Notes under the pieces: model-generated | Databases searched by the model: none | What the model was told of the DNA's origin: nothing | What the model saw: the letters and a program-made list of their open reading frames with translations, nothing else | Shown: piece after piece, positions 35,604 through 55,047 of the stretch | How the letters are laid out: every line of letters begins with the position of its first letter | Numbering within the stretch: position 1 is the first letter of the stretch | NCBI GenBank assembly: GCA_016933025.1 | Contig: JAFGBT010000006.1 | Coordinates: 1 to 64,000, forward strand | Source: Spirochaetota bacterium | GTDB lineage: Bacteria > Spirochaetota > UBA4802 > UBA5550 | Direction: 5' to 3' | DNA length: 64,000 bases | Position numbers and translations under genes: made by a program

Positions 35604-38552
35604 ATGCTTCCTCCGCAATACCGGGGTACGCAGATATATCTCAATACTCACCTTATTTATGAAACGAGAAAGTTTGACCACAAAGGGAATTCTCCATTCA
35701 TAGTTGGAAAGCCTGATATAATTCCATTACCTGACACCCTCATCAATACAGGAATTAATACACTTGCATTTAGAACCGGTTCTCTAAATGACGATGGGGG
35801 ATTTAATGGATATACGTACATAGGACCGAGATTAAAAATTAAATTAAAATTTCTAAGAAAAATTCTCTGGGATGGCATCCTGGGGTTTATTAATATATAT
35901 ATCGCCTTGTATTTCATGTTTATTTTTTTTAAAAGGCAAAAAGAACGATACTACTTATACTTTTCGTTATTATCGTTATCAATTGGGCTATGGATCATCG
36001 GATATAAACATTTAATATTATTTTTGTTTGATCATCAAATAGTCTATATTTTCATTACATATATTCCCGCAATCACCGTCTGTATATTTCTTTTAGAGTT
36101 TATTCATTCATATTTCAACATCGAGAAAAACATTACGGTAAAAATATTAATAATTATTTTTATTATTCTTGCATGCGAGTTGCTTGTTGAACAGACAATT
36201 ACCTCTCAAATCACTTATTATGCAAGATATCTATATTCAATTTTTATGGTATTATCATTATTGAGTATTATCTATTCCATATCTATTTCCATTAAAGAAA
36301 TTTCAAAAAACACTCCTTATTCAAACAGGATTCTGATAAGTCTTATAATACTATTACTAACGACTGGGTACAGCTCTTTAACCTTTATGGATATTATCAA
36401 ATCCGAGCCTGTTTTAGTCGAAGGCTTTTTCATCATGTCCTTGATCTTCGCCTCCATACTCGCATCCAGGTTCGCCCAGGTTCACACGGACCTTGAGAAG
36501 GCCCACAATGACCTCCTGGTGCTCGACAAAATGAAGGATGACTTCCTGGCAACTACGAGCCATGAACTGCGCACGCCGCTCCACGGCATCATGGGCATAG
36601 CCGAGTCGCTCACGGACGGCACGCTCGGGCCGGTGAACGCCGCGCAGAAGGAGAACCTCGAGCTGATCCGCTCCAGCTCGTCGCACCTGACGTCGCTGGT
36701 GAACGAGATCCTCGACTTCAGCAAGATGCGGGCCGGCAGGGCGGACCTCATCCTCGACAACATCCGCGTGGACGACATCGCGGCCACCGTGGTCTCCCTC
36801 CTCCGTCCGTCCGCCGCGGAACGGGGACTCGAGATCACGGCGGATCTTAAAAAGCCGCCGGCCATCAAGGCGGACCGGAACCGGCTGCGGCAGATCTTCA
36901 TCAACCTGGTCGGCAACGCGGTCAAGTACACGGAAACCGGTTCCATCACCGTGACCGTGGAGCCTGCCGAAAGCGGGGTCAGAGTAACAGTTCGGGACAC
37001 CGGCCCCGGCATAGACGCGAAGGACCTCGAGCGGATATGGGAGCCCTTCACCCAGGCGGAAGACCCGGACCGCCGCAGGGCCGGGGGCACGGGCCTGGGC
37101 CTGGCGATCACCAAATACCTGGTGGAGCTCCACGACGGCCGTATCTGGGCTGAAAGCGAAAAGGGCAAAGGAAGCGCCTTCATGTTCGAGCTGCCGGCCG
37201 AACCGAAGTCGCGCGGCATCTTGAAAGAGACCGCTGCTATTGAGCCGCTTCAGCCGTCCGCCGGAGAAGCGGCCATCGCCGTTGCGGAGCCGAGCGAAGA
37301 TCAGGGTTACAGGATCAAATCTAAGTATTCGTCGGCGGTCATTCTCGCGGTCGACGACGATCCGGTGAGCATCAGGGTGGTCGAGAACCTCTGCCTCCTG
37401 GTCGGCTACGACCTGGTGACCGCGGCAAACGGCCCCGAGGCCCTTTCAGTCATCTACGAACGCGAGGTGGACCTGGTCCTCCTTGACCTGATGCTCCCGG
37501 GCATGAGCGGCTTCGAGGTGTGCCAGGAGATCCGCAAGCTGGAAAAGGCGCGGTACATCCCGATCATCATGGTGACGGCCCGCGACGGCACAGGAGATTT
37601 GGTAAAAGGGTTCACCACCGGCGCCAACGACTACGTGACCAAGCCCTTCAACCGGGAGGAGCTCCTGGTGCGCATCGAGAACCAGCTCGTTATCAAGCAG
37701 ATGCTCGACATGGAGAAATCGGTCATCAACGGACTCCGCCAGGAGAAGGACTCCATCTCAAACCTGTACCAGCGGAGCATGGACCTGAAGGAGTCGACCC
37801 TCCAGATGGTCGAGTGGGAGCACATCATACGCGAAGACCTGGACATCGCCACATCGTTCCAGCTCAAGCTGATGACCCATGAGAGAAGCATCCCCGGCAT
37901 CGAGACCAGCGTGCGCTACCGGCCGCTCCTGAAAATCGGCGGCGACCTCTACGATATTTTCGAGTTCCGGCCCGGCGTGGCGCGCGTGTTCATCGCGGAC
38001 GCCACCGGCCACGGCATCACCGCCTCCCTCAACACCGTGAAAATCCTGTCCGAGTACGCGGCGGTGAAGGAGACCCTCTCCGCGCCGGAGGTCGTGATGA
38101 ACTACATGAACCGACGCTTCGTCCAGCTCTTCCGCGACTACCAGATCGTGTTCACCTGCGTTGTCGCCGATATCAACATAGCCGAATCGACCATTGTCGC
38201 GGCCCAGGCGGGGCATCCGGCACAGCTTATCCTGCGCGGCCGGGAGTCGATTCAGGTACGGCCGCCGGGGCCGATTATCGGATTTTCCGCGCAGATGGAG
38301 TACCAGGAGGAGACCCACGAATTCAGGCAGGGCGACATCTTCTTCCTCTACACCGACGGCCTCCTCGAGCTGTCACAGCCGGACGCGGGCGGCCCCCTCC
38401 CCTATGACACGGACATCCTTGCCAAAGCCGTGGCCGATTCCTTCGATGCCAGGGGCATCGAGGAGGGAGGCGAAGAGCTGTTGAAGCAATTCCGCGCGGG
38501 AAGGAAAAGGCTGGACGACGACGTGACGTTTATCGCGATACGGAAATTATAA
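35604..38552 (+). CDS. 7TM sensor hybrid histidine kinase with receiver and SpoIIE-type phosphatase
   Basis: 982 residues from ATG 35604, but the true N-terminus very likely lies upstream (see 35290-35603). Order: rest of a 7TMR-DISM-type periplasmic beta-domain (to residue ~85, PPQYRGTQIYLN...NTLAFRTGS), six or seven membrane segments (to ~285), HisKA with SHELRTP (His320), HATPase (NLVGNAVKYT, DTGPGI, GTGLGLAI), a receiver (phospho-acceptor Asp628 in LLDLMLPG), a linker, and a PP2C/SpoIIE domain (KIGGDLYDIF, ADATGHGI, LYTDGLLEL). The output is thus probably dephosphorylation of an anti-sigma antagonist or related protein. Codons are AT-rich to about 36410, then GC-rich. It overlaps the convergent radical SAM gene by six bases. 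Confidence 0.9.
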   Translation: MLPPQYRGTQIYLNTHLIYETRKFDHKGNSPFIVGKPDIIPLPDTLINTGINTLAFRTGSLNDDGGFNGYTYIGPRLKIKLKFLRKILWDGILGFINIYIALYFMFIFFKRQKERYYLYFSLLSLSIGLWIIGYKHLILFLFDHQIVYIFITYIPAITVCIFLLEFIHSYFNIEKNITVKILIIIFIILACELLVEQTITSQITYYARYLYSIFMVLSLLSIIYSISISIKEISKNTPYSNRILISLIILLLTTGYSSLTFMDIIKSEPVLVEGFFIMSLIFASILASRFAQVHTDLEKAHNDLLVLDKMKDDFLATTSHELRTPLHGIMGIAESLTDGTLGPVNAAQKENLELIRSSSSHLTSLVNEILDFSKMRAGRADLILDNIRVDDIAATVVSLLRPSAAERGLEITADLKKPPAIKADRNRLRQIFINLVGNAVKYTETGSITVTVEPAESGVRVTVRDTGPGIDAKDLERIWEPFTQAEDPDRRRAGGTGLGLAITKYLVELHDGRIWAESEKGKGSAFMFELPAEPKSRGILKETAAIEPLQPSAGEAAIAVAEPSEDQGYRIKSKYSSAVILAVDDDPVSIRVVENLCLLVGYDLVTAANGPEALSVIYEREVDLVLLDLMLPGMSGFEVCQEIRKLEKARYIPIIMVTARDGTGDLVKGFTTGANDYVTKPFNREELLVRIENQLVIKQMLDMEKSVINGLRQEKDSISNLYQRSMDLKESTLQMVEWEHIIREDLDIATSFQLKLMTHERSIPGIETSVRYRPLLKIGGDLYDIFEFRPGVARVFIADATGHGITASLNTVKILSEYAAVKETLSAPEVVMNYMNRRFVQLFRDYQIVFTCVVADINIAESTIVAAQAGHPAQLILRGRESIQVRPPGPIIGFSAQMEYQEETHEFRQGDIFFLYTDGLLELSQPDAGGPLPYDTDILAKAVADSFDARGIEEGGEELLKQFRAGRKRLDDDVTFIAIRKL

Positions 38553-42063: not shown

Positions 42064-42274
42064 ATATACTAGTGTTCTTATCTCGGCATTATAATTCCGC
42101 TATTAAATTTTTCAAGGATATTATCAGCAATAATATGCTTGCATTTTTGCAAATGCTTCGTCCAGATTATGGCGGCGTGATAGCGTGCACTGCCGGATTG
42201 CGCTTGATTCCGGCATGAGCATCTATCATGCACATTTCTTCATGAAATATATATGTTTTCTGAGGAAGGTTGTC

Positions 42275-42955
42275 ATGCGGGCAATTTTTGAAATCTATAG
42301 AGACAAATCAGGCGAATACAGATTCAGGCTAAAGGCCGCCAACGGGGAAGTAATTGCCGTGAGCGAGGGTTACTCGACCAAGATAAGCTGCATCAGCGGT
42401 ATCGACTCGGTCAGAATCAACGCGGCCTCAGCGCTGGTGGTGGAGCTGAACCCGGACAGGGATCTCCTGGCGGCATGCGACGCGGGCGACCTTGCCGCCG
42501 CCCGCCGGGCGCTCGCCGATGGAGCGAAACCCAACGCAGTCGATCGAGAGGGAGAATCCGCATTGATTGAGGCGGCTGAATCCGGCAACCTGGAGCTGGT
42601 AAAGCTCCTGGTGCAGAAAAAGGCCGAGGTCAACCAGGTCGATTTCACCGGCGAGACGCCGCTCCACGAAGCGAGCGAAGAAGGGCACGATGAGATCGTC
42701 CGCTATTTGATACGGCGGTCCGCCAATCTCGACGCGAAGGACAACAGGGGAAATACCCCGCTCCACAAGGCGCTCCTCGGGGGGAAGGCGGGCGCCGCCA
42801 GAATTCTTGTAGCCGCAGGCGCGAAGACAAACGTCCCTAACAAAATGGGAAGTACGCCCGAGATGATCGCGAGAGAACGGGGGATACCGCTTGCGAAGAA
42901 GAGGGCCGCACCGAAAAAATCTGTGAAAAAAGCCGCAAAGAAAAAGAAAAAATAG
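42275..42955 (+). CDS. YegP-domain (DUF1508) ankyrin-repeat protein with lysine-rich tail
   Basis: 226 residues from ATG 42275, which follows GAGGAAGG; the 30-residue upstream extension is not supported. Residues 1-55 are a YegP/DUF1508 domain (FEIYRDKSGEYRFRLKAANGEVIAVSEGY). Then about four ankyrin repeats (DREGESALIEAAESGNLELVKLL; TGETPLHEASEEGHDEIVRYL; RGNTPLHKALLGGKAGAARIL; MGSTPEMIARERG). The last 25 residues are almost all Lys, Ala and Arg, like histone H1-type tails that bind nucleic acid. The three-part fusion is unusual. Confidence 0.82.
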   Translation: MRAIFEIYRDKSGEYRFRLKAANGEVIAVSEGYSTKISCISGIDSVRINAASALVVELNPDRDLLAACDAGDLAAARRALADGAKPNAVDREGESALIEAAESGNLELVKLLVQKKAEVNQVDFTGETPLHEASEEGHDEIVRYLIRRSANLDAKDNRGNTPLHKALLGGKAGAARILVAAGAKTNVPNKMGSTPEMIARERGIPLAKKRAAPKKSVKKAAKKKKK

Positions 42956-45820: not shown

Positions 45821-46277
45821 ATGTAGACAATATATAGCGTTCTGTTATTAATTCCTATCCGGTTAATAAATACCTGGATAGAGCACCCTCCTAATCAATA
45901 TCATTTAAATTTTTATCTGATTATAAATTCCTGATATAAACATGTTCAGGCCAATGGCAATGCATGGCCAAAATAAGGTTTTATCGGCGTCTGATTATGG
46001 CCTTTCCGGGCAATACATGAGAAAACAAATAAGGGGATTAACTCATCTGAAAAAGCCCGTAAAAACAGGTGACATAATAATTAAATGAACAATTCAGCCT
46101 ATGTGTATTAGTATTTTATACTACCACCTCATAAGATGGCTAATTTTTGATACATCAGACCCGTGCCAGACAATTAAATATATTAATTGTATATATTTAG
46201 CATCATAAATTTTTGGAAGTTCGCAAGATAGTGAATTCATTTTTTCGAATAAGCTCGTACCGCCCGGACGGTTGGAG
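45821..46277. other. AT-rich intergenic region
   Basis: About 455 bases before the seven-gene cluster. It is AT-rich with no open reading frame or repeat I can support; the cluster promoter must be here. Confidence 0.4.
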
Positions 46278-47645
46278 ATGTTTAATGAAGATTCTTATGG
46301 GTCTTCATGGAAAAGGATACGAAATATGATACGATTTATTTTTTATCTTGCCGTATCAGTTATAAAAGTCCACTTCAATAACCTGCTTTCAAGGAAGAGG
46401 TTGTTAAAGAACACTGAAAAAAGAGTGCTCAGGACCATCCGGCGGGCCTATGAAGACGTTCCCTATTATAAAAAGCTGTATGATGAATGGGGCGTCGATA
46501 TATCCGAAATAAAAACGATAGACGATTTGAGGCTCCTCCCCTGCATAACCAAGGACGAGATTCGCGAGAACTTCCCCGGCGGCATAATTTCCAGAAAAAA
46601 CAGGCTGGAGAAATGCCATTATTCAGCCACAACCGGTTCTACCGGGAAATCCCTTCCTTTTGTTTTCACAAAATCGACCTTCGCCTTCTACATCGCGACC
46701 GGCCTCCGGATGTACACCATGATAGGCTACCGTCCCTGGCATAAAATGGTATATATCAAGTATACCAAGCTTGACTACCCGCGTTTCGGGCCCTTTTTCC
46801 GCACGGAGCATATTCCTTCTACCATTCCGGTTGAACAGCAGATTGCCCAGCTGAGGAACGCCAAGCCCGATCTCCTGCTCGGGTACGCCTCGATTGTTTT
46901 CGAAATCGCCCAAAAGCTTACCGCGGACGATCTCCAGCACATCAGGCCGAAGTTCATCGGTATAAATTCCGAGCTGTCGACCCAGCACCAGAGGGACTTC
47001 ATCTCCCAGGTTTTCGGATGCCCGGTATATGACGAGTATTCAACCGAGGAGACGTGGATGGTGGCCTCGCAGTGCAGGGAAGGCAACTACCACCTCTACA
47101 TCGACAACGTCTGGGTCGAGTTTCTCGATAAAAACGGCAAGCCTGCGAGGCCCGGCGAGCAGGGCGAAATGGTCCTTACCACGACCCGGAGCTCCGCCAT
47201 GCCGTTCATACGCTACCGGATTGGCGACATCGGGCGGTACAGCGACTCTTCCTGCACATGCAGCCTCGGGTATCCCATCCTTAAGTCCTTTGAAGGAAGG
47301 TCGGACGACTCCTTCATACTCCCGAGCGGCAAATACATTTCATCCCTTAAGATCCTGAACACCTTCACGAAGTATATAAAGAAATACCTCTATCTCATGG
47401 AGGAATTCAAGATTATCCAGAAAGACAGCGGTTTTGTGGTTATCGAGCTCGTCAGGGGCAGTGAATACAACGATCAACATTTCCAGGAACTGGTTGACAG
47501 CCTTCATGCGATCTTCGGCGAACCGGTAACCATCAGCATTGAATTCGTCGATCACATAGAGATTAAAAACGGCATCAAGCGGAAGGCGATTGAATCATGG
47601 GTGAACAACAGGGAAAATGATACGGTCCTTACATCTGCTGTGTGA
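46278..47645 (+). CDS. PaaK/CapK-like adenylate-forming ligase
   Basis: 455 residues from ATG 46278 (TTG 46272 also possible; neither has an ideal ribosome site). PaaK family features: RRAYEDVPYYKKLYDEWGVD, the ATP motif SATTGSTGKS, YDEYSTEE, and FIRYRIGDIGRY. Members activate aryl or carboxylic acids as AMP esters, and many sit in polysaccharide (CapK) or secondary-metabolite clusters. A hydrophobic N-terminal segment (IRFIFYLAVSVIKVHF) is atypical for soluble PaaK and suggests membrane association. It is the first of seven co-directional genes. Confidence 0.85.
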   Translation: MFNEDSYGSSWKRIRNMIRFIFYLAVSVIKVHFNNLLSRKRLLKNTEKRVLRTIRRAYEDVPYYKKLYDEWGVDISEIKTIDDLRLLPCITKDEIRENFPGGIISRKNRLEKCHYSATTGSTGKSLPFVFTKSTFAFYIATGLRMYTMIGYRPWHKMVYIKYTKLDYPRFGPFFRTEHIPSTIPVEQQIAQLRNAKPDLLLGYASIVFEIAQKLTADDLQHIRPKFIGINSELSTQHQRDFISQVFGCPVYDEYSTEETWMVASQCREGNYHLYIDNVWVEFLDKNGKPARPGEQGEMVLTTTRSSAMPFIRYRIGDIGRYSDSSCTCSLGYPILKSFEGRSDDSFILPSGKYISSLKILNTFTKYIKKYLYLMEEFKIIQKDSGFVVIELVRGSEYNDQHFQELVDSLHAIFGEPVTISIEFVDHIEIKNGIKRKAIESWVNNRENDTVLTSAV

Positions 47646-47698
47646 CAGGACATGAAATAGATACTATATGATTCAGTACTAATGGAGGATAACACATA

Positions 47699-49240
47699 AT
47701 GTTTAAATCAAGAGTCATAGCAATTTTACTCGCAACCTTTTCGGCGGGCCTATTCTACAACAACGCGTTCCCGTGTGACGTCGCCGTCGTGTCGGCGCGC
47801 GTATCCTCGACCGGCAGGCCCTTCATATGGAAAAACAGGGACTGCTCGGCGTCCTGGCACCAGGAGATCAAGTATTTCGAGCCGGTCAGCACCAGGACGG
47901 GGGGCTACCTGATGGTCTGCGCGTTTGACGACACTGCCGATTTCAACAACGGAACGCCGGTAAACCCATCAGGCGGCGTGAACGAGGCGGGCTTTGCCAT
48001 ATCCTGCACCTCGGTATATGAAGAACTGGTACCCCTCCACGAAGCGGTCAACATCAACACCGATTTGATCAGGCATGCCCTGCAGGAGTGCGTCACCATC
48101 AGCGATCTTGACAAGCTGTTCAAGGGCTTCTCAGCCAGGCACGTCGGCAAGGTCATCAGCGGCAATTTCGTCGCCATCGACGCTTACGGCGGCGCCGCAC
48201 TGTACGAGGCCTATACCGGGATGATACTCGGCATGGTCCGCCCGGTCCAGTACCGGAAATACGACGCCAACAACGGCAAGGTGACCGAATTCAACGGCCT
48301 TTTTACCTTCACAAAGACCCCGAGCCAGGGTGACAGCTTCATCGGCTTCGTGAACCGCGCCAACTCCAACACGTACATACCATACAACTACGGCGAGGAA
48401 CGCAGGTGGCGCGCCGAGGAGATCCTTACCGATCTCGCGAACACGGGGAGGCTGAACCACCAGAACTGCATGATCGAGGTGGCCAAGGACGTCAACGGCC
48501 AGCAGCTGGACGCCAACGGAAACCAGATCGACCCGAACACGGTTCTCGATAACTACAGCACCACCTACTGCATCAGCCGGGCCGCCACCAGGCTCGGTAT
48601 GGTGGTTGACGGTGTTGCTTCGGGCAGCGACCCCCGCCTGAGCGTGTTCTGGTGCGTGCTGGGAGAGCCTTCTGCCGGCATCTTCATCCCCTACTTTGCC
48701 CATGCCCGCTCGACATCATGGCTCTCCTGGATTGATGATATTGAGCTTGACGGGACCCGGTATGACCTGAACGACACGTCGCTCTTGGCCAGGGCATGCA
48801 ATCGCCGTGAAATTTACGAGAACCTATTGTATGATGACAATTTGGGAGACTATTTGTCGGGCATGTATGATAAAAAAATCAACAAGCTGGAGCTCGCCAA
48901 GGTGCAGGAATGGACGTTCCCGCTCGAGAACTACCTGGTGCAGAGATGCGAAGAGGTGATGTCCGACATGACTCTTCACCCCTCCTATATTACCCCTGAA
49001 AACCTGAGGGGCTTCTCTGACTATTGCGCCTGGTATGCATACATGAATTACAACGAGGGTACTGACGATTATTACGCATGGGAATACGCCAAGCCATGGG
49101 ATCCCGTCTGGACCGGAACAACCCGCGGCGGCCTTGACGATGACGGCGGCTATTCTTCATCATTACCATTTACCGGGTATTCGAGCACTACCAACATGTC
49201 GCTTTTCGGTTTAATATTCACGGTTCTCGGAATGCTATAA
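47699..49240 (+). CDS. Exported Ntn-hydrolase (choloylglycine/penicillin-acyltransferase-like superfamily)
   Basis: 513 residues. A signal peptide ends at ...NNAFP, so Cys26 becomes the free N-terminal nucleophile (CDVAVVSARVSSTGRPFIWKNRDCS), as in Ntn-hydrolases of the C45/C59/C69 kind. GGVNEAGFAISCTS and a SGNFVAIDA segment fit the fold. Family members hydrolyse or transfer acyl groups on amides. A C-terminal hydrophobic end (FGLIFTVLGML) resembles a weak anchor. TAATGGAGGATAACACATA precedes the ATG, a clear ribosome site. Periplasmic or surface amide chemistry is inferred. Confidence 0.8.
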   Translation: MFKSRVIAILLATFSAGLFYNNAFPCDVAVVSARVSSTGRPFIWKNRDCSASWHQEIKYFEPVSTRTGGYLMVCAFDDTADFNNGTPVNPSGGVNEAGFAISCTSVYEELVPLHEAVNINTDLIRHALQECVTISDLDKLFKGFSARHVGKVISGNFVAIDAYGGAALYEAYTGMILGMVRPVQYRKYDANNGKVTEFNGLFTFTKTPSQGDSFIGFVNRANSNTYIPYNYGEERRWRAEEILTDLANTGRLNHQNCMIEVAKDVNGQQLDANGNQIDPNTVLDNYSTTYCISRAATRLGMVVDGVASGSDPRLSVFWCVLGEPSAGIFIPYFAHARSTSWLSWIDDIELDGTRYDLNDTSLLARACNRREIYENLLYDDNLGDYLSGMYDKKINKLELAKVQEWTFPLENYLVQRCEEVMSDMTLHPSYITPENLRGFSDYCAWYAYMNYNEGTDDYYAWEYAKPWDPVWTGTTRGGLDDDGGYSSSLPFTGYSSTTNMSLFGLIFTVLGML

Positions 49241-49283
49241 TAAAGGGCACGGGAAAAAACTCGGGATACGTTGAGACAACAAG

Positions 49284-50336
49284 ATGATTCCAGCACTTAA
49301 ATTACAGGATTATAACCGACCGGTCGAAGCGCCGCAGAAAAGGGTTGAACCAGAGCGCCAACCGGCGGCGCCCGTCAGCGAAAAGCGGACGATCCTATAC
49401 TATGTCAAGATAGCGGCCCCCTGGGTCGTGGGCATAGCCATCCTGGCATACCTTGTCTGGCGGATCGAGTTCAGCGCCCTGGTGAACGCGCTCGCGCGCG
49501 CCGACGTCGTCCTCTACGCTGCGGTGCTGGCCGCTTTCATAATCCTGAATTTTCTCGTGGACACGCAGAATCTCCAGGCAATCCTCACTCATTCCCGGCA
49601 CAGCATATCGTTCTCGGAAACGATGATGATACGGGGCGCCTCATACCTCCTCATGATCGTCGATTATACGCTGGGGATGAGCAGTATCGCATATTATTTA
49701 AAAAAATCAAAGGGGATCCCCTTTATCCGCGGAATGGGCCTGATGTTCGTATTGAACTTCACGACGCAAGCCTCTCTTCTGGTAATGGCCCTTGCCGGCT
49801 GCCTCCTCATGTCAGGATCGCCTTCGCACTGGCTTTCTAAAATGGCAATCGGATGCGGGGCGCTCCTTGCCTCCTCGCTGATCTTTCTCATCGGTTTGAA
49901 ATTGCTCCCCGAAAAGTCAATTTTCAGGAAGATCAAACGGAACGATCTCATGAAGGGGCTGGTCGAAAGCTCGGCGCGGACCTATCTCATAAACACACTG
50001 TACCGATGCGGCTTTTACTTCACCTTCATACTTTTCTTCTATGTGGCCGTCAGGGCATTCAACATGGACATTCCCTTCATGGCTCTGATCGCCTATGTCC
50101 CGGTCATCCTGCTCATCATCAGCATCCCGATATCGGCATTCGGGCTCGGGACATCCCAGGCTGCCATGCTCTTCCTGTTCAGGGACTATGGCACGCCGGC
50201 GCAGATCCTCGCCTTCAGCCTTGTTTACTCCGCCTCAATAATCATCGTACGAGGAATCATCGGGGCCTGTTATTACGGTATTATCACCAAGCGTGTTTCA
50301 TATAAAACAAAGATTTTACATGGAGAGGTATCATGA
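49284..50336 (+). CDS. LPG-synthase-type (UPF0104) integral membrane protein, flippase-like
   Basis: 350 residues. A cytoplasmic Pro/Arg-rich head (1-35) precedes about seven or eight membrane helices with the lysylphosphatidylglycerol-synthase TM-domain pattern (AFGLGTSQAAMLFLF near the end). In MprF this domain flips aminoacylated lipids, and similar proteins sit in polyprenyl or glycolipid clusters. There is no aminoacyltransferase domain. The stop overlaps the start of the CapA gene by four bases (ATGA). Confidence 0.82.
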   Translation: MIPALKLQDYNRPVEAPQKRVEPERQPAAPVSEKRTILYYVKIAAPWVVGIAILAYLVWRIEFSALVNALARADVVLYAAVLAAFIILNFLVDTQNLQAILTHSRHSISFSETMMIRGASYLLMIVDYTLGMSSIAYYLKKSKGIPFIRGMGLMFVLNFTTQASLLVMALAGCLLMSGSPSHWLSKMAIGCGALLASSLIFLIGLKLLPEKSIFRKIKRNDLMKGLVESSARTYLINTLYRCGFYFTFILFFYVAVRAFNMDIPFMALIAYVPVILLIISIPISAFGLGTSQAAMLFLFRDYGTPAQILAFSLVYSASIIIVRGIIGACYYGIITKRVSYKTKILHGEVS

Positions 50337-51589
50337 AAAAGACAGGAATAATCGCGCTATATGCAATATTTCTCGCAAGCGTAATCGCGCTTTTCGGATG
50401 CGGCGGCAACAGCGGGAATGATTTCCTGGGAATGCTTTCCGGCCAGGTGTCCGACCGTACACCGACGGACGACTCCGTTGACTATCAACCGGGTGATACC
50501 GGATACGGAACGGTCATCCCGAGCACAAACCCGGACAGCGATACTGTCGTTATTCCGGGCGATACGGAAACCGGCACAGGGACCGGAACCGGCACGGGGA
50601 CTGGAACGGGTACGGGGACCGGAACGGGTACGGGGACCGGAACGGGTACGGGGACCGGAACGGGTACGGGGACCGGAACGGGTACGGGCACAACCACAGT
50701 AGATGAAACCGTTAAACTGGTATTCACCGGTGACGTTATGCTTGCGCGTAAAGTCGCGGATGTGGTTGCAAGCAACGGCAATAATTACCAGTACCCGTTT
50801 ATGCATGTTGCCAGCTATTTAAGCGGTGCTGATTTCACCTTTGTCAACCTGGAGAGCATAATAAGCGACACTGGATTCCCGGACCTCACCCAGTCACTGC
50901 AGGGCATTGCGTTCCGGGCCGAGCCGGCAGCCATTAATGGCCTGACCTATGCCGGCATTGATATCGTTTCAGTCGCAAACAACCATGCTTTCGATTACGG
51001 CCGGGTAGCATTTGAAGACTGCCTGGCGCGGCTGACTGGCGCGGGAATCGCCTATATCGGCGGCGGTACCTTTGAAGATGCATATACCCCGAAAATATTC
51101 ACCATAAAGGGTGTTACATTCGCATTTTTGGCATTCACCCTCATTGGAGACGAGTTCGGCATGCGGGCGCAAAAGGACGACCCGCTGCAGGGATTGACCG
51201 CTCAGACCGGTGTCGCGTGGTTCTACAAAAAATACGCTGGTCCCGCAATAAATCAGGCTAAGAGACTGGCGGATATCGTCATCGTTTCAATACATTTTGG
51301 CGTTGAATATTCGACAATGCCGAGTGCGCTCCAGGATATGTACGGCCACTATTGCGTGGACCAGGGGGCGAACCTTGTCATCGGCCACCACCCCCACGTG
51401 ATAAACCCGGTCATGGTATATACCAAGGGATTCATCGCGTACTCGCTCGGCAATTTTATTTTCGATCAAAGCGATGAGGCCACCAAGAAGGGACTGGTAC
51501 TGGAAGTAATCGTGCGGAACAAAAAAATCGCCGAGGTAACGAGGAAACACGTTCAGATCAATTCAACGTATCAACCGGTGTTTCAATAA
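50333..51589 (+). CDS. CapA-family lipoprotein with Thr-Gly repeat linker
   Basis: 418 residues. Lipobox ALFGC gives lipidated Cys23. A linker follows (residues ~24-80), then about 20 Thr-Gly pairs (50571-50692). The CapA/metallophosphoesterase-like domain starts at KLVFTGDVMLAR, with FVNLESIIS, SVANNHAFDYG, IVSIHFGVEY, GHHPHVINPV and YSLGNFIFDQ. CapA acts in poly-gamma-glutamate capsule formation. No PgsB/PgsC partner is seen here. It is co-translated with the upstream flippase-like gene. Confidence 0.88.
   Translation: MKKTGIIALYAIFLASVIALFGCGGNSGNDFLGMLSGQVSDRTPTDDSVDYQPGDTGYGTVIPSTNPDSDTVVIPGDTETGTGTGTGTGTGTGTGTGTGTGTGTGTGTGTGTGTGTGTGTTTVDETVKLVFTGDVMLARKVADVVASNGNNYQYPFMHVASYLSGADFTFVNLESIISDTGFPDLTQSLQGIAFRAEPAAINGLTYAGIDIVSVANNHAFDYGRVAFEDCLARLTGAGIAYIGGGTFEDAYTPKIFTIKGVTFAFLAFTLIGDEFGMRAQKDDPLQGLTAQTGVAWFYKKYAGPAINQAKRLADIVIVSIHFGVEYSTMPSALQDMYGHYCVDQGANLVIGHHPHVINPVMVYTKGFIAYSLGNFIFDQSDEATKKGLVLEVIVRNKKIAEVTRKHVQINSTYQPVFQ
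50571..50692 (+). repeat. Short tandem repeat encoding Thr-Gly pairs
   Basis: Repeated GGNACNGGNAC units, with an 18-base sub-period (ACCGGAACGGGTACGGGG) seen at least four times. Length is likely to vary by slippage in multiples of six bases, keeping frame. Confidence 0.9.
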
Positions 51590-51595
51590 AAGAGT

Positions 51596-52606
51596 ATGAT
51601 AGCATTTAGAATCGACAACAGCGTCTCAGAGCGCAACCCTGTACGGAAGCTTGAGGAAAGACTCGAGGATCTCATCCCTCTCAAGCATTTCATCATAACA
51701 GGGTTTGCACGCAACGGCCTCTTTCTCCTCGTCAAGGCCTGCAAGTGGGAAAAGGCGGAGATCATTGTGCCGGCTTTCACCTGCTCCATAATCAGGCATA
51801 CGATTGAGGAAGCGGGCGCCGTTCCAGTGCCTGTCGATTCTGAGGATAACGGGATAAACATCGATCCCCGGAAAATTGAGAGGGCGATAACGCCGCTAAC
51901 CAGGGCATTATATGTCGTCCATACATATGGCACTGCAGCACAAATTGAAGCAATAGCCGCCATAGCGAAGAAGCATCGTTTGATGCTCATAGAAGACCTG
52001 GCTCATGCGCCTTTTGCGCTCTATAACGACAAACCGCTCGGCACGTTTGGCGATTTTGCCATCCTGAGCTTTACGAAAAAAATCATTAATTATGAAGGCG
52101 GGTCGATTGGCACAAACAATACCACCGTATACAAAAAAATGCTCCTGTTACAAAAAGAATACCAGCGCAGCCGCTCGATTTCCCTCAATTTTTTTATCGA
52201 TAATTACGTCCGTCTGGTCGGTTCCTGGTGGGAAACCAAGTTCTCTCCTGCGGCCCTTCTGTTGATGAAACTGAATGATATAATTAATGTAGTCATTCAT
52301 AAGGGAGCATACGGCATCAAGATTGATCATGAAAGATTTCATCCAAGCACGACAGCATGCCGGATAACCATCCGTCAGCTCGACTCGCTGTTTAAAAAAT
52401 ATCGAGATGAGGACAAAACTGCCTCGCAAAAGCAGTATTTTACAGGAACAGTAATGGAGCAGAACCGCCTCTACAGGCTGCTGTCATTCAGGACCTGGAG
52501 AAACAGCAACAGCCCGGGCTTATATCCGAGGGCAGACTATCTTTACAGCAATTATAGAATTTTTTCGAAGGCCATACACCTCTTCGGGCAGTTGACATCA
52601 TCCTGA
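51596..52606 (+). CDS. DegT/DnrJ/EryC1/StrS-family PLP-dependent aminotransferase
   Basis: 336 residues. Family pattern: ARNGLFLLVKACKWEKAEIIVPAFTCS (SxG/R...AL and PxFT), VVHTYGTAAQIEAI (HxYG), IEDLAHA (ED.A.A, PLP contact) and SFTKKI with Lys161 or Lys162 as the internal aldimine lysine (family SFxxTK). Usual length is about 370; this is a little short at the C-terminus. It transfers amino groups to keto-sugars or related ketones. It starts six bases after the CapA stop. The substrate may be an aminosugar or, given the neighbours, an amino ketone; unknown. Confidence 0.82.
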   Translation: MIAFRIDNSVSERNPVRKLEERLEDLIPLKHFIITGFARNGLFLLVKACKWEKAEIIVPAFTCSIIRHTIEEAGAVPVPVDSEDNGINIDPRKIERAITPLTRALYVVHTYGTAAQIEAIAAIAKKHRLMLIEDLAHAPFALYNDKPLGTFGDFAILSFTKKIINYEGGSIGTNNTTVYKKMLLLQKEYQRSRSISLNFFIDNYVRLVGSWWETKFSPAALLLMKLNDIINVVIHKGAYGIKIDHERFHPSTTACRITIRQLDSLFKKYRDEDKTASQKQYFTGTVMEQNRLYRLLSFRTWRNSNSPGLYPRADYLYSNYRIFSKAIHLFGQLTSS

Positions 52607-52674
52607 AGCGGAATGGATACAGACTATTAATAACCGAGGCAAACAAGCAGAGAAAATTACAAAAGGGGGACCAA

Positions 52675-53751
52675 ATGATAGTATCTCAGGAAGCCATCAT
52701 CAAATCAATTACAGGGAAAGAAAGATCTTCGCATCGCATACCGGTGAACTGCGGAGACAATTTCATATTGCACCACAAGGGGTTCAACTATTACGCGGTT
52801 GATCTCAGAAATTCCAATTTTGACGACATCGAGGATATTATCGCCGGGTGCGAGGCGGTTGAAAACGACACGTGGAAAGCACAAGAGGACTTCTTCCAGT
52901 ACATCAGGAAAAGCGACATCCTCGTCTATGCAGAAAAAAACGAGCGCATTGTCGGTTTCAATCTGATCTCCCTGCTTCTTATTAATGAATATTGTTTTTA
53001 TACGATTGACGAAGCGATGGTGCTCCGGGCTTTCCAGGGCAACAATATTGCCCGCAACGTCGTTATTACCGCCCTCTGGTGGTTCCTTAAAAAAATCGAC
53101 CTCGGCAGCGCAGTAAAGAAGGCGGTCCTGGTATCAATCTCCGCCAATCCGAAAGTGGTCAATAACTACTTTAAAAACAAGTACGTGCTTCGCGTGTTCG
53201 ATACTTCATTTTTCCCTTCGGATGAGCTGATCACCCTTCACCGGGCCTATCTTACTAAAAATAATTTTTTCCTGGTTGATAACCGTTTTCCATTCTGCGT
53301 GAAAAACCTCTTCCCCGGATCGCAGCAGCTTGACTGGACCAATAAAAAATATCAATTCCATAATGAAATCGTAAAGCGAATGCCCCCGGAATTTGATCAT
53401 AAAAAACGGGGCGACGCATGGGCGTTCATGCTGGCCGGCAATTTGAAGCTCGGCTACACGGTCATACGCATTATGACCTTCCTTTTCCTCGGGACGAAAA
53501 CATTGTTCAATAAGAACATAGGCCTCCTGAAGAGCAAGAAACACCTTGTGAGCAAACCCCAGCTGACAAGAATAAGGCTGATCGACGGAAGGTTTATTGA
53601 ACGGCGGAATATCGACAGAAGAACCATCGAGAGACGCATTGCCGATCGCCGGATGATTAATCTGGGATGCGATGCGAACGGCATCGACAGGCGAACATCC
53701 GAAAGGCGTGACGGCGAAAGAAGAAACCTTGACCGGAGGCTGGCCAGGTAG
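52675..53751 (+). CDS. GNAT-like acyltransferase with Arg-Arg repeat tail
   Basis: 358 residues. A central GNAT-like segment (about 80-175) includes a likely acyl-CoA/ACP loop in AMVLRAFQGNNIARNVV. The closest known roles are N-acylation of amines or sugars. Past residue ~300 the tail is a run of ERR/DRR motifs (IERRNIDRRTIERRIADRR..., then IDRRTSERRDGERRNLDRR), strongly basic with a regular four-residue beat. Similar ERRxxDRR runs occur near PilZ or receiver proteins elsewhere. ATG at 52675 follows AAAGGGGGA. Confidence 0.65.
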   Translation: MIVSQEAIIKSITGKERSSHRIPVNCGDNFILHHKGFNYYAVDLRNSNFDDIEDIIAGCEAVENDTWKAQEDFFQYIRKSDILVYAEKNERIVGFNLISLLLINEYCFYTIDEAMVLRAFQGNNIARNVVITALWWFLKKIDLGSAVKKAVLVSISANPKVVNNYFKNKYVLRVFDTSFFPSDELITLHRAYLTKNNFFLVDNRFPFCVKNLFPGSQQLDWTNKKYQFHNEIVKRMPPEFDHKKRGDAWAFMLAGNLKLGYTVIRIMTFLFLGTKTLFNKNIGLLKSKKHLVSKPQLTRIRLIDGRFIERRNIDRRTIERRIADRRMINLGCDANGIDRRTSERRDGERRNLDRRLAR

Positions 53752-53817
53752 GCATCTGGCGCACTTCGTTCTGTAAAAATTTTATCCTGCTTGCCACTCT
53801 TTACTCTGAGAGCTGAC

Positions 53818-55047
53818 ATGAACATGAAGTCTGTTAACACCCACAACAGGCCCTATACCAGGGCGCTGTCTGTAAATGAACGCTTCTGGCTCGTCATCGA
53901 CAGGATAAATCCCCCATTTTCGATACAGGTAGTCTGCGAAGGCCAGGGCGCGTTCGATCTTTCCAAATGGAAAAAGGCGGTCGAGATTGCATCGGCGGCA
54001 AATCCGGGCAGCAGGCTGATACTGAAAGGAATGCTGAGCAACTGTCGCTGGGTCGATTCGGGAATCTCTCCGTCCGTGCGCGAAGTGGACGGAAGCTCCT
54101 GGTCGGGGAACGGCCCCGAAGGGGCTCCCTTCCTCTACAAACCACTGAACGTCTCCAGGGGACCCACTTGCGAAGTCCTTATAATTCACGGGAATCCTAT
54201 CAGGGTCGCCTTCCGCGTCCATCATGGCGTGATGGATTCGCGGGGGATTATTTTCTGGGTTGAGGAAATCTTCCGCGCTCTCCGCGGAGAGCCACTTTTC
54301 GGTTCTCATTCACTGATGACCGACTGGGATGTCGCCAGATCATTTCAGAATGAATATCGCAAACCGTTCCCCCATGACAACCTCTCGCTCACAGGCCGGG
54401 CAGAAGGAGATGAACCGGGCATTATATGGGGCCGCAAGCGGCTCCTCGGGCAATACAAGCAACTGATTGCCCAGGTCGCTCATGCCGCCGCCAGGGAAGC
54501 GAGGCTTCACGGGAGAGGAAACGTTCGTTTCGCCATTCCGGTAGATCTGAGATCCCGCATTGAAGGACTCAGGTCAACCGGAAATCTTGCCATAGGCATT
54601 TACATCGACATCAAACCGGAAACAACGGTTGAAGAGATTGATTTAGAAATTTCACGACAGATTGCGGAAAAACGGGATGGTATGATTGATCGATGGGATT
54701 CCATATACAGAGTAATTCCAATCGCTATTATGAGCAAGGTATTGAACAGAAGAATATCCGCCAACCATAAAAATGGGCTCTACAGTCTATCCGGCATTAT
54801 AACAGATGCCGGCTGGTTCAACCTTGAAAGGTATTCTGGCGGCGGATTTATCGCGGACAATATCTTCTTTGTACCTCCCGCGATGCCATACCCCCCGGTC
54901 CTGATCGCCCTGTACGGAACAGATAAGTGGGTCGAGATTCTTTACGGGGCCCCCCGGGTGCTCGCCACGGGCGGCCGGCTCGATTCAGCAATTGAGCGCA
55001 TTGCATCGAGCCTTATTACCGCATGTTCAGACTCGGCTGGCGTTTGA
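53818..55047 (+). CDS. Condensation-domain acyltransferase (PapA/NRPS C-domain-like)
   Basis: 409 residues from ATG 53818, chosen over a TTG 27 bases earlier. A half-length condensation-fold protein: catalytic motif HHGVMDS at residues 135-141 (HHxxxD, with Ser in place of the usual Gly). Then a second half with the GNLAIGIYIDIKPE and FNLERYSGGGF segments typical of the C-terminal half. PapA-type enzymes transfer acyl groups from carrier proteins to alcohols or amines. It is the last gene of the seven-gene cluster. No adjacent carrier domain is found, but the ACP at 34026 could serve. Confidence 0.78.
   Translation: MNMKSVNTHNRPYTRALSVNERFWLVIDRINPPFSIQVVCEGQGAFDLSKWKKAVEIASAANPGSRLILKGMLSNCRWVDSGISPSVREVDGSSWSGNGPEGAPFLYKPLNVSRGPTCEVLIIHGNPIRVAFRVHHGVMDSRGIIFWVEEIFRALRGEPLFGSHSLMTDWDVARSFQNEYRKPFPHDNLSLTGRAEGDEPGIIWGRKRLLGQYKQLIAQVAHAAAREARLHGRGNVRFAIPVDLRSRIEGLRSTGNLAIGIYIDIKPETTVEEIDLEISRQIAEKRDGMIDRWDSIYRVIPIAIMSKVLNRRISANHKNGLYSLSGIITDAGWFNLERYSGGGFIADNIFFVPPAMPYPPVLIALYGTDKWVEILYGAPRVLATGGRLDSAIERIASSLITACSDSAGV

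Follow-up and report, generated by a model that had tools for sequence, protein, structure and literature searches.

Several described systems combine some of the steps that may be brought together in the locus considered here. In the ornithine lipid pathways (OlsBA, OlsF, OlsH/OlsI; PMC11631085, PMC12493201), amide formation by a GNAT-type or GH3 enzyme is followed by ester acylation, as is proposed here, and N-acyl ornithine is the product of one bacterial GH3 enzyme (PMC12493201); in pyoverdine biosynthesis (PMC6206403), an acylated precursor is exported and then deacylated outside the cytoplasm by PvdQ, a two-chain Ntn acylase. The logic proposed for the seven-gene block described below would, by analogy, be comparable to both the aminolipid pathways and the periplasmic deacylation by PvdQ. 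Unlike the Ols pathways, however, the block contains no OlsB (PF13444, the profile of OlsB-type aminolipid N-acyltransferases, has no match in any of the seven proteins), OlsF or GH3; O-acylation is proposed to depend on a PapA-like protein rather than on the PlsC-like or alpha/beta-hydrolase enzymes of those pathways, and a flippase-like protein and two extracytoplasmic enzymes are added, whereas a GH3 gene is common to the aminolipid pathways and to distant versions of the block. The difference from the PvdQ system lies in the Ntn hydrolase, which is C69-like and of a different family by the tests used here, and in the absence of an NRPS from the window's genome. Every protein of the block comes from a known superfamily; novelty lies in how they are combined, in the recurrence of this set and in the array formed by an acyltransferase family that had gone unrecognised. 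A literature search combining PaaK, PGA_cap and the flippase domain returned no paper, which is weak evidence of novelty, subscription journals being mostly outside its scope.

The block is located on contig 6 of a 4.06-Mb Spirochaetota assembly, within the window, as the whole 64,000-nucleotide stretch of DNA analysed is called here, and consists of seven co-directional open reading frames on the + strand (46326-55047), present at the positions given in the first-pass annotation:

46326-47645, + strand: PaaK-type adenylate-forming ligase (NCBIfam PaaK families, solved PaaK 4r1l, motifs)
47699-49240, + strand: predicted exported Ntn amide hydrolase, Peptidase_C69/C45-like (profile-profile comparison, invariant residues)
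49284-50336, + strand: flippase-like membrane protein (PF03706)
50333-51589, + strand: CapA/PGA_cap lipoprotein of metallophosphoesterase fold, its lipobox followed by a (Thr-Gly)n linker (PF09587)
50579-50688, + strand: 18-bp in-frame tandem repeat within CapA, 6.1 copies (TRF score 199)
51596-52606, + strand: DegT/DnrJ/EryC1/StrS aminotransferase with the PLP-lysine motif SFTKK (PF01041, alignment)
52675-53751, + strand: GNAT-like N-acyltransferase, a weak assignment, with Arg-rich C-terminal repeats (Acetyltransf_1)
53818-55047, + strand: Cond, a standalone condensation-type (PapA-like) acyltransferase with the motif HHGVMDSRG (hhalign, HxxxD)

With the corrected starts of the first and last genes, the intergenic distances are, in order, 53, 43, -4 (an ATGA overlap), 6, 68 and 66 bases, so that the first description of the genes as lying on one strand with short gaps or overlaps, including the ATGA shared by the flippase and CapA genes and the six bases between CapA and DegT, is borne out. 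The PaaK start has been moved from TTG at 46272 to ATG at 46326, where the relatives start and which is preceded by AAGGA; this ATG is probably the true start. The Cond start has been moved from TTG at 53791 to ATG at 53818 or 53824. No convincing terminator was found in a + strand scan between the seven genes, and promoter-like matches were more numerous than in shuffled sequences, yet scattered over both strands. Comparison with PHROGs gave no matches. The family assignments made earlier are upheld overall, those of the flippase-like protein, CapA and DegT being solid and that of GNAT weak. Elsewhere in the window, ankyrin repeats are fused to a DUF1508 domain (42185-42955), and a single protein combines a 7TM-DISM sensor, a histidine kinase, a receiver and a SpoIIE phosphatase (35604-38552).

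The reading preferred here, with confidence a little above even, is that the block may constitute one pathway by which the cell makes an acylated amine or amide resembling a lipid or a lipopeptide, passes it through the inner membrane and completes it on the outer side; the steps, their order, the substrates and the product are derived from protein families and anatomy. In this scheme, the PaaK-type ligase would activate a carboxylic acid as acyl-AMP, the acceptor of the acyl group being CoA, a hydroxyl or an amine. DegT would supply the amine by transamination, GNAT would N-acylate it, and Cond would O-acylate the product, with a different group added by each of the several distinct copies found in relatives. 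The flippase-like protein would then carry the product over the inner membrane, outside which an acyl group in amide linkage would be cut off or transferred by the exported Ntn hydrolase, and a second finishing step would fall to the lipoprotein CapA, a putative metal-site enzyme of the MslH/PGA_cap fold. If true, this would define the genes for a new acylated amine that is exported by uncultured spirochaetes and by other bacteria; it would also offer, for PGA_cap and C69-like proteins at large, a test case of product finishing outside the cell by a secreted Ntn hydrolase together with CapA, a lipoprotein of calcineurin fold.

The linkage of the genes is far beyond chance, since the order PaaK-Ntn-flippase-CapA-DegT-GNAT followed by one to four Cond copies is repeated in four congeners (the window's genome, G000, together with G003, G005 and G004, the block of the last being split between two contigs whose ends share 87 bp exactly), and a second genus (G016) keeps this order for genes one to six, which five Cond copies face, at a different place in the chromosome away from flagellar genes. 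Within the genus, the block has an amidase gene on one side and flgJ/flgI on the other; in a sixth congener, G002, it is absent and the amidase, lipase and flgJ genes are contiguous, giving an empty site which, set beside the occupied sites of the congeners, indicates that the block is gained or lost as a whole. Of the 20 family genomes, the 8 with Ntn are precisely those with Cond (Fisher p 8e-6; by genus, 0.002). The conserved order, the presence or absence as a unit and this co-occurrence, together with the confinement of GNAT and the intact catalytic residues described below, argue for a single pathway. The modules are, however, apart in two genomes, which counts against it: the fifth congener, G001, carries PaaK-flippase-DegT-GNAT and three Cond copies, with Ntn-CapA together on another contig, and the more distant G010 carries GNAT-Ntn-Ntn-PaaK2-flippase-C39-like-CapA, with PaaK and three Cond copies at a separate place. 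No acyl carrier protein is present, which also counts against a single pathway, as do the weak GNAT assignment and the residues lost from CapA in G003 and G005, both described below.

Other distant versions of the block differ in composition and order. PaaK-Ntn-PaaK2-CapA-DegT is found in G028, from another family, and Ntn-PaaK2-flippase-C39-like in G013; a metagenome-assembled genome labelled Proteobacteria (L054, G393) has GNAT-DegT-Ntn-flippase-CapA, with five Cond copies elsewhere, and its relatives have either PaaK-Ntn-flippase (L098, L102) or Ntn, a gene for a 264-aa protein, a GH3 acyl-amide synthetase, PaaK, PaaK2, flippase, HlyD and an RND pump (L103, L104). The proposal that the 264-aa protein of G410/G474 is the same GNAT is unsupported (hhalign 2%). 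The gene set is modular and recurs with changing partners in distant bacteria; the flippase and the secreted Ntn hydrolase are its least variable parts. Elsewhere PaaK is replaced or accompanied by GH3, a second PaaK or an NRPS, each of which is an adenylating or amide-forming system. The association of distant Ntn genes with ligases and flippase, and with GH3 and HlyD/RND partners (L098, L102, L103, L104), is a further argument for a common pathway. The partial separation in G001 and G010 could instead reflect two independent neighbouring modules without a common product, one for cytoplasmic acylation (PaaK and the Cond array) and one for the envelope (Ntn and CapA), an interpretation that is unlikely in view of the exact Ntn/Cond co-occurrence in the family and the re-linking of the genes in rearranged orders in distant genomes. 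The first-pass annotation had proposed a single envelope-directed acyl/amide pathway and had named unlinked genes in close relatives as one observation that would count against it: such unlinking exists in part, in G001 and G010, and weakens the proposal, but clustering is otherwise conserved and, together with the empty G002 site and the distant GH3, second PaaK and HlyD-RND partners, speaks in its favour. The tandem Cond copies of relatives, the modular make-up of the set and the NRPS near the G016 array go beyond that first description.

The ligase matches the NCBIfam PaaK families at 2e-36 to 8e-29, every one far below its equivalog cut-off; the score for the PaaK equivalog TIGR02155 (100.4 bits against a cut-off of 646.3) identifies a PaaK-like ligase and not PaaK itself. 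A sequence search of solved structures retrieved PaaK 4r1l at 1e-29, and the adenylation motifs are intact in the alignment (the P-loop TTGSTGK, YSTEE, RYRIGD, KRK and the C-terminal Lys). Cys268, His274, Cys328 and Cys330 are invariant across 7 relatives. NatL2, from nataxazole biosynthesis, is likewise a PaaK-family adenylating ligase, with a zinc site formed by Cys248, His254, Cys308 and Cys310 (PMC7204872; PDB 6siw); the spacing of these ligands, Cys-x5-His ... Cys-x-Cys, is identical in the window protein, although the overall identity to NatL2 is only distant (3.8e-15) and ordinary PaaK is the better match (1e-29).

In the Ntn hydrolase, the nucleophile Cys26 immediately follows the signal peptide, the KN/SRD and G-x-N-E-x-G signatures used as the family criterion are present, and Cys26, Lys45, Arg47, Asp48 and Asn95 are invariant in 15 diverse homologues, in most of which Ala precedes the N-terminal Cys; this Ala-Cys arrangement would fit nucleophile exposure through signal-peptide cleavage. 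The family profile matches Peptidase_C69 proteins (hhalign 96.9%, E 1.3e-10), whereas single-sequence matches are weak (14.9 bits for Pfam AAT against a cut-off of 23.2, and 6.7e-5, below cut-off, for NCBIfam C45), a sequence search against solved structures gave no match, and the predicted model is too poor for use (mean pLDDT 41.5). Judged from these sequence features, the protein is a signal-peptide-bearing C69-like amide hydrolase, for which amide hydrolysis and autoproteolysis are predicted. Its family is rare: 9 of the 393 Spirochaetota genomes and 4 of the 291 genomes of the other class sampled have a strong match. Several paralogues in G393, G394 and G474 are unlinked to partners and count against a single pathway; those at L096 and L097 (G393) and L105 (G474) have no partner genes nearby. 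Ntn acylases can quench acyl signals (PMC5474475), and PaaK enzymes are typical of catabolism, so that the block could serve degradation or signal quenching, with Ntn and CapA dismantling environmental acyl amides and PaaK feeding the released acid to catabolism. This is very improbable, as the block has no uptake transporter or beta-oxidation genes, and the acyltransferase arrays, the flippase and the RND partners indicate synthesis and export.

The flippase-like protein is a clear member of PF03706 (LPG_synthase_TM; 8.2e-18, 65.3 bits against a cut-off of 33.4), the proteins of which may be regarded as flippases by analogy only. CapA is equally clear (PF09587; 3.4e-69, 233.6 bits against a cut-off of 27) and shares its fold family with the lasso-peptide epimerase MslH (PMC10406935; PDB 8gq9), the catalytic dyads and most calcium ligands of which are conserved: the equivalent residues Asp134, Glu174, Asn217, His218, Asp221, His321 and His355 are present, and His261 of MslH is replaced by Gly323. 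Apart from this replacement, the window protein differs from MslH in being a lipoprotein and in having no lasso peptide genes nearby and no CapB/CapC; synthetase partners of the latter type, which belong to the poly-gamma-glutamate capsule system, are absent from the seven genes and the annotated neighbours. In the CapA proteins of G003 and G005 (L025, L024), the equivalents of Asn217 and His355, which correspond to catalytic or metal residues of MslH, have been lost with the gene still in place, which implies that the catalytic step is not essential everywhere, and these two proteins are possibly non-catalytic. The 18-bp repeat (50579-50688) encodes the Thr-Gly linker, the length and sequence of which vary between species, so that the repeat copy number may vary.

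DegT is firmly assigned (PF01041; 2.2e-40, 139.4 bits against a cut-off of 19.8), with the PLP lysine in SFTKK, and is about 22 residues shorter internally than its relatives in the alignment. GNAT is less secure: Acetyltransf_1 is matched in 5 of 6 family members, with a best E of 0.0038, below cut-off; no NCBIfam profile is matched, hence not that of the exosortase acyltransferase (FeeM/exosortase-associated N-acyl amino acid synthase); the sequence search against solved structures gave no match, and the predicted model (mean pLDDT 39.1) is too poor for use. The family is confined to cluster-bearing genomes, save for one match in G028 that covers the Arg-rich repeats only. These C-terminal repeats form an ERR/DRR array (53587-53745), retained yet variable among relatives. 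The nearest solved relatives of DegT, perosamine synthetase and KDO8N transaminase, would also suit the decoration of a surface glycolipid or polysaccharide, with DegT forming an amino sugar, GNAT and Cond acylating it and the flippase moving the glycolipid; CapA comes from a capsule-named family, and a second locus in the window's genome (contig 2) places a flippase paralogue (52%) and two Cond copies with a GT28/UGT-type glycosyltransferase. Nevertheless, no glycosyltransferase, nucleotide-sugar enzyme, Wzx/Wzy or CapB/CapC is found in the block or its distant versions, and GH3 and NRPS partners are better suited to acyl amides or peptides, which leaves this alternative with a rather low probability.

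Cond has no Pfam match and none to solved structures in the sequence search. The alignment of its family with standalone Condensation/PapA_C proteins is full-length (hhalign 97.5%, E 6e-12, 378 residues), against only 12.5% for NRPS condensation domains, and the catalytic H-x3-D (HxxxD) is kept in 40 of 40 copies; these comparisons define a predicted acyltransferase family missed by Pfam and kin to PapA-like standalone condensation proteins. The HHxxxD motif, the length and the profile resemble those of PapA_C-bearing proteins such as the PapA-type acyltransferases of mycobacterial lipids, from which Cond differs in the lack of a Pfam match, in its tandem arrays of 3-5 copies and in its deep, separately conserved lineages. 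The window's Cond is the first member of such arrays in relatives, and in the tree the tandem copies of each genome fall in separate old clades (op1 to op4) common to several species; their placement in different old interspecies clades shows that they are not recent duplicates, and the distinct copies probably add different groups or act at different sites. If the preferred reading is right, the block would add to the known enzymes a Pfam-unrecognised acyltransferase family with old, separately conserved tandem copies. In the window's genome, the first copy is in the block and two are on contig 2, as described above; four tandem copies on contig 9 (L033:8597-13545) adjoin a CMAS-like methyltransferase and an HpaB 4-hydroxyphenylacetate hydroxylase, possibly a second acylation locus.

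In other genomes, three Cond copies lie beside two KASIII genes (G393), and in G016 a distance of 0.66 kb separates the array from a divergent NRPS that is encoded by two genes and may have a fatty-acyl loading domain; the company kept by Cond, with KASIII, with the flippase paralogue and glycosyltransferase in the window's genome and near the NRPS, is consistent with a single acylation and export pathway. The G016 arrangement, in which the neighbours of the NRPS are a thioesterase, two further standalone condensation proteins and a protein of beta-lactamase fold, may also point to a tailoring and export set for a non-ribosomal lipopeptide, with Ntn as the deacylase. This is quite unlikely, because PF00668 (Condensation) has no match in the window's genome or in the three cluster-bearing congeners, an absence that rules out NRPS as a general partner. 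A more far-reaching possibility, which we regard as doubtful, is that exported acyl amides, whether natural products or lipids, form a widespread class that has yet to be described: they would be built by interchangeable amide-forming engines (PaaK, GH3 plus a PaaK pair, or NRPS) that have in common one flippase and an extracytoplasmic Ntn hydrolase, often with CapA, as a finishing unit, and would be polyacylated by arrays of a new PapA-like acyltransferase family. The G016 NRPS cluster (L141, L142) amounts to more than 7500 residues and includes an SDR in addition to the proteins already named.
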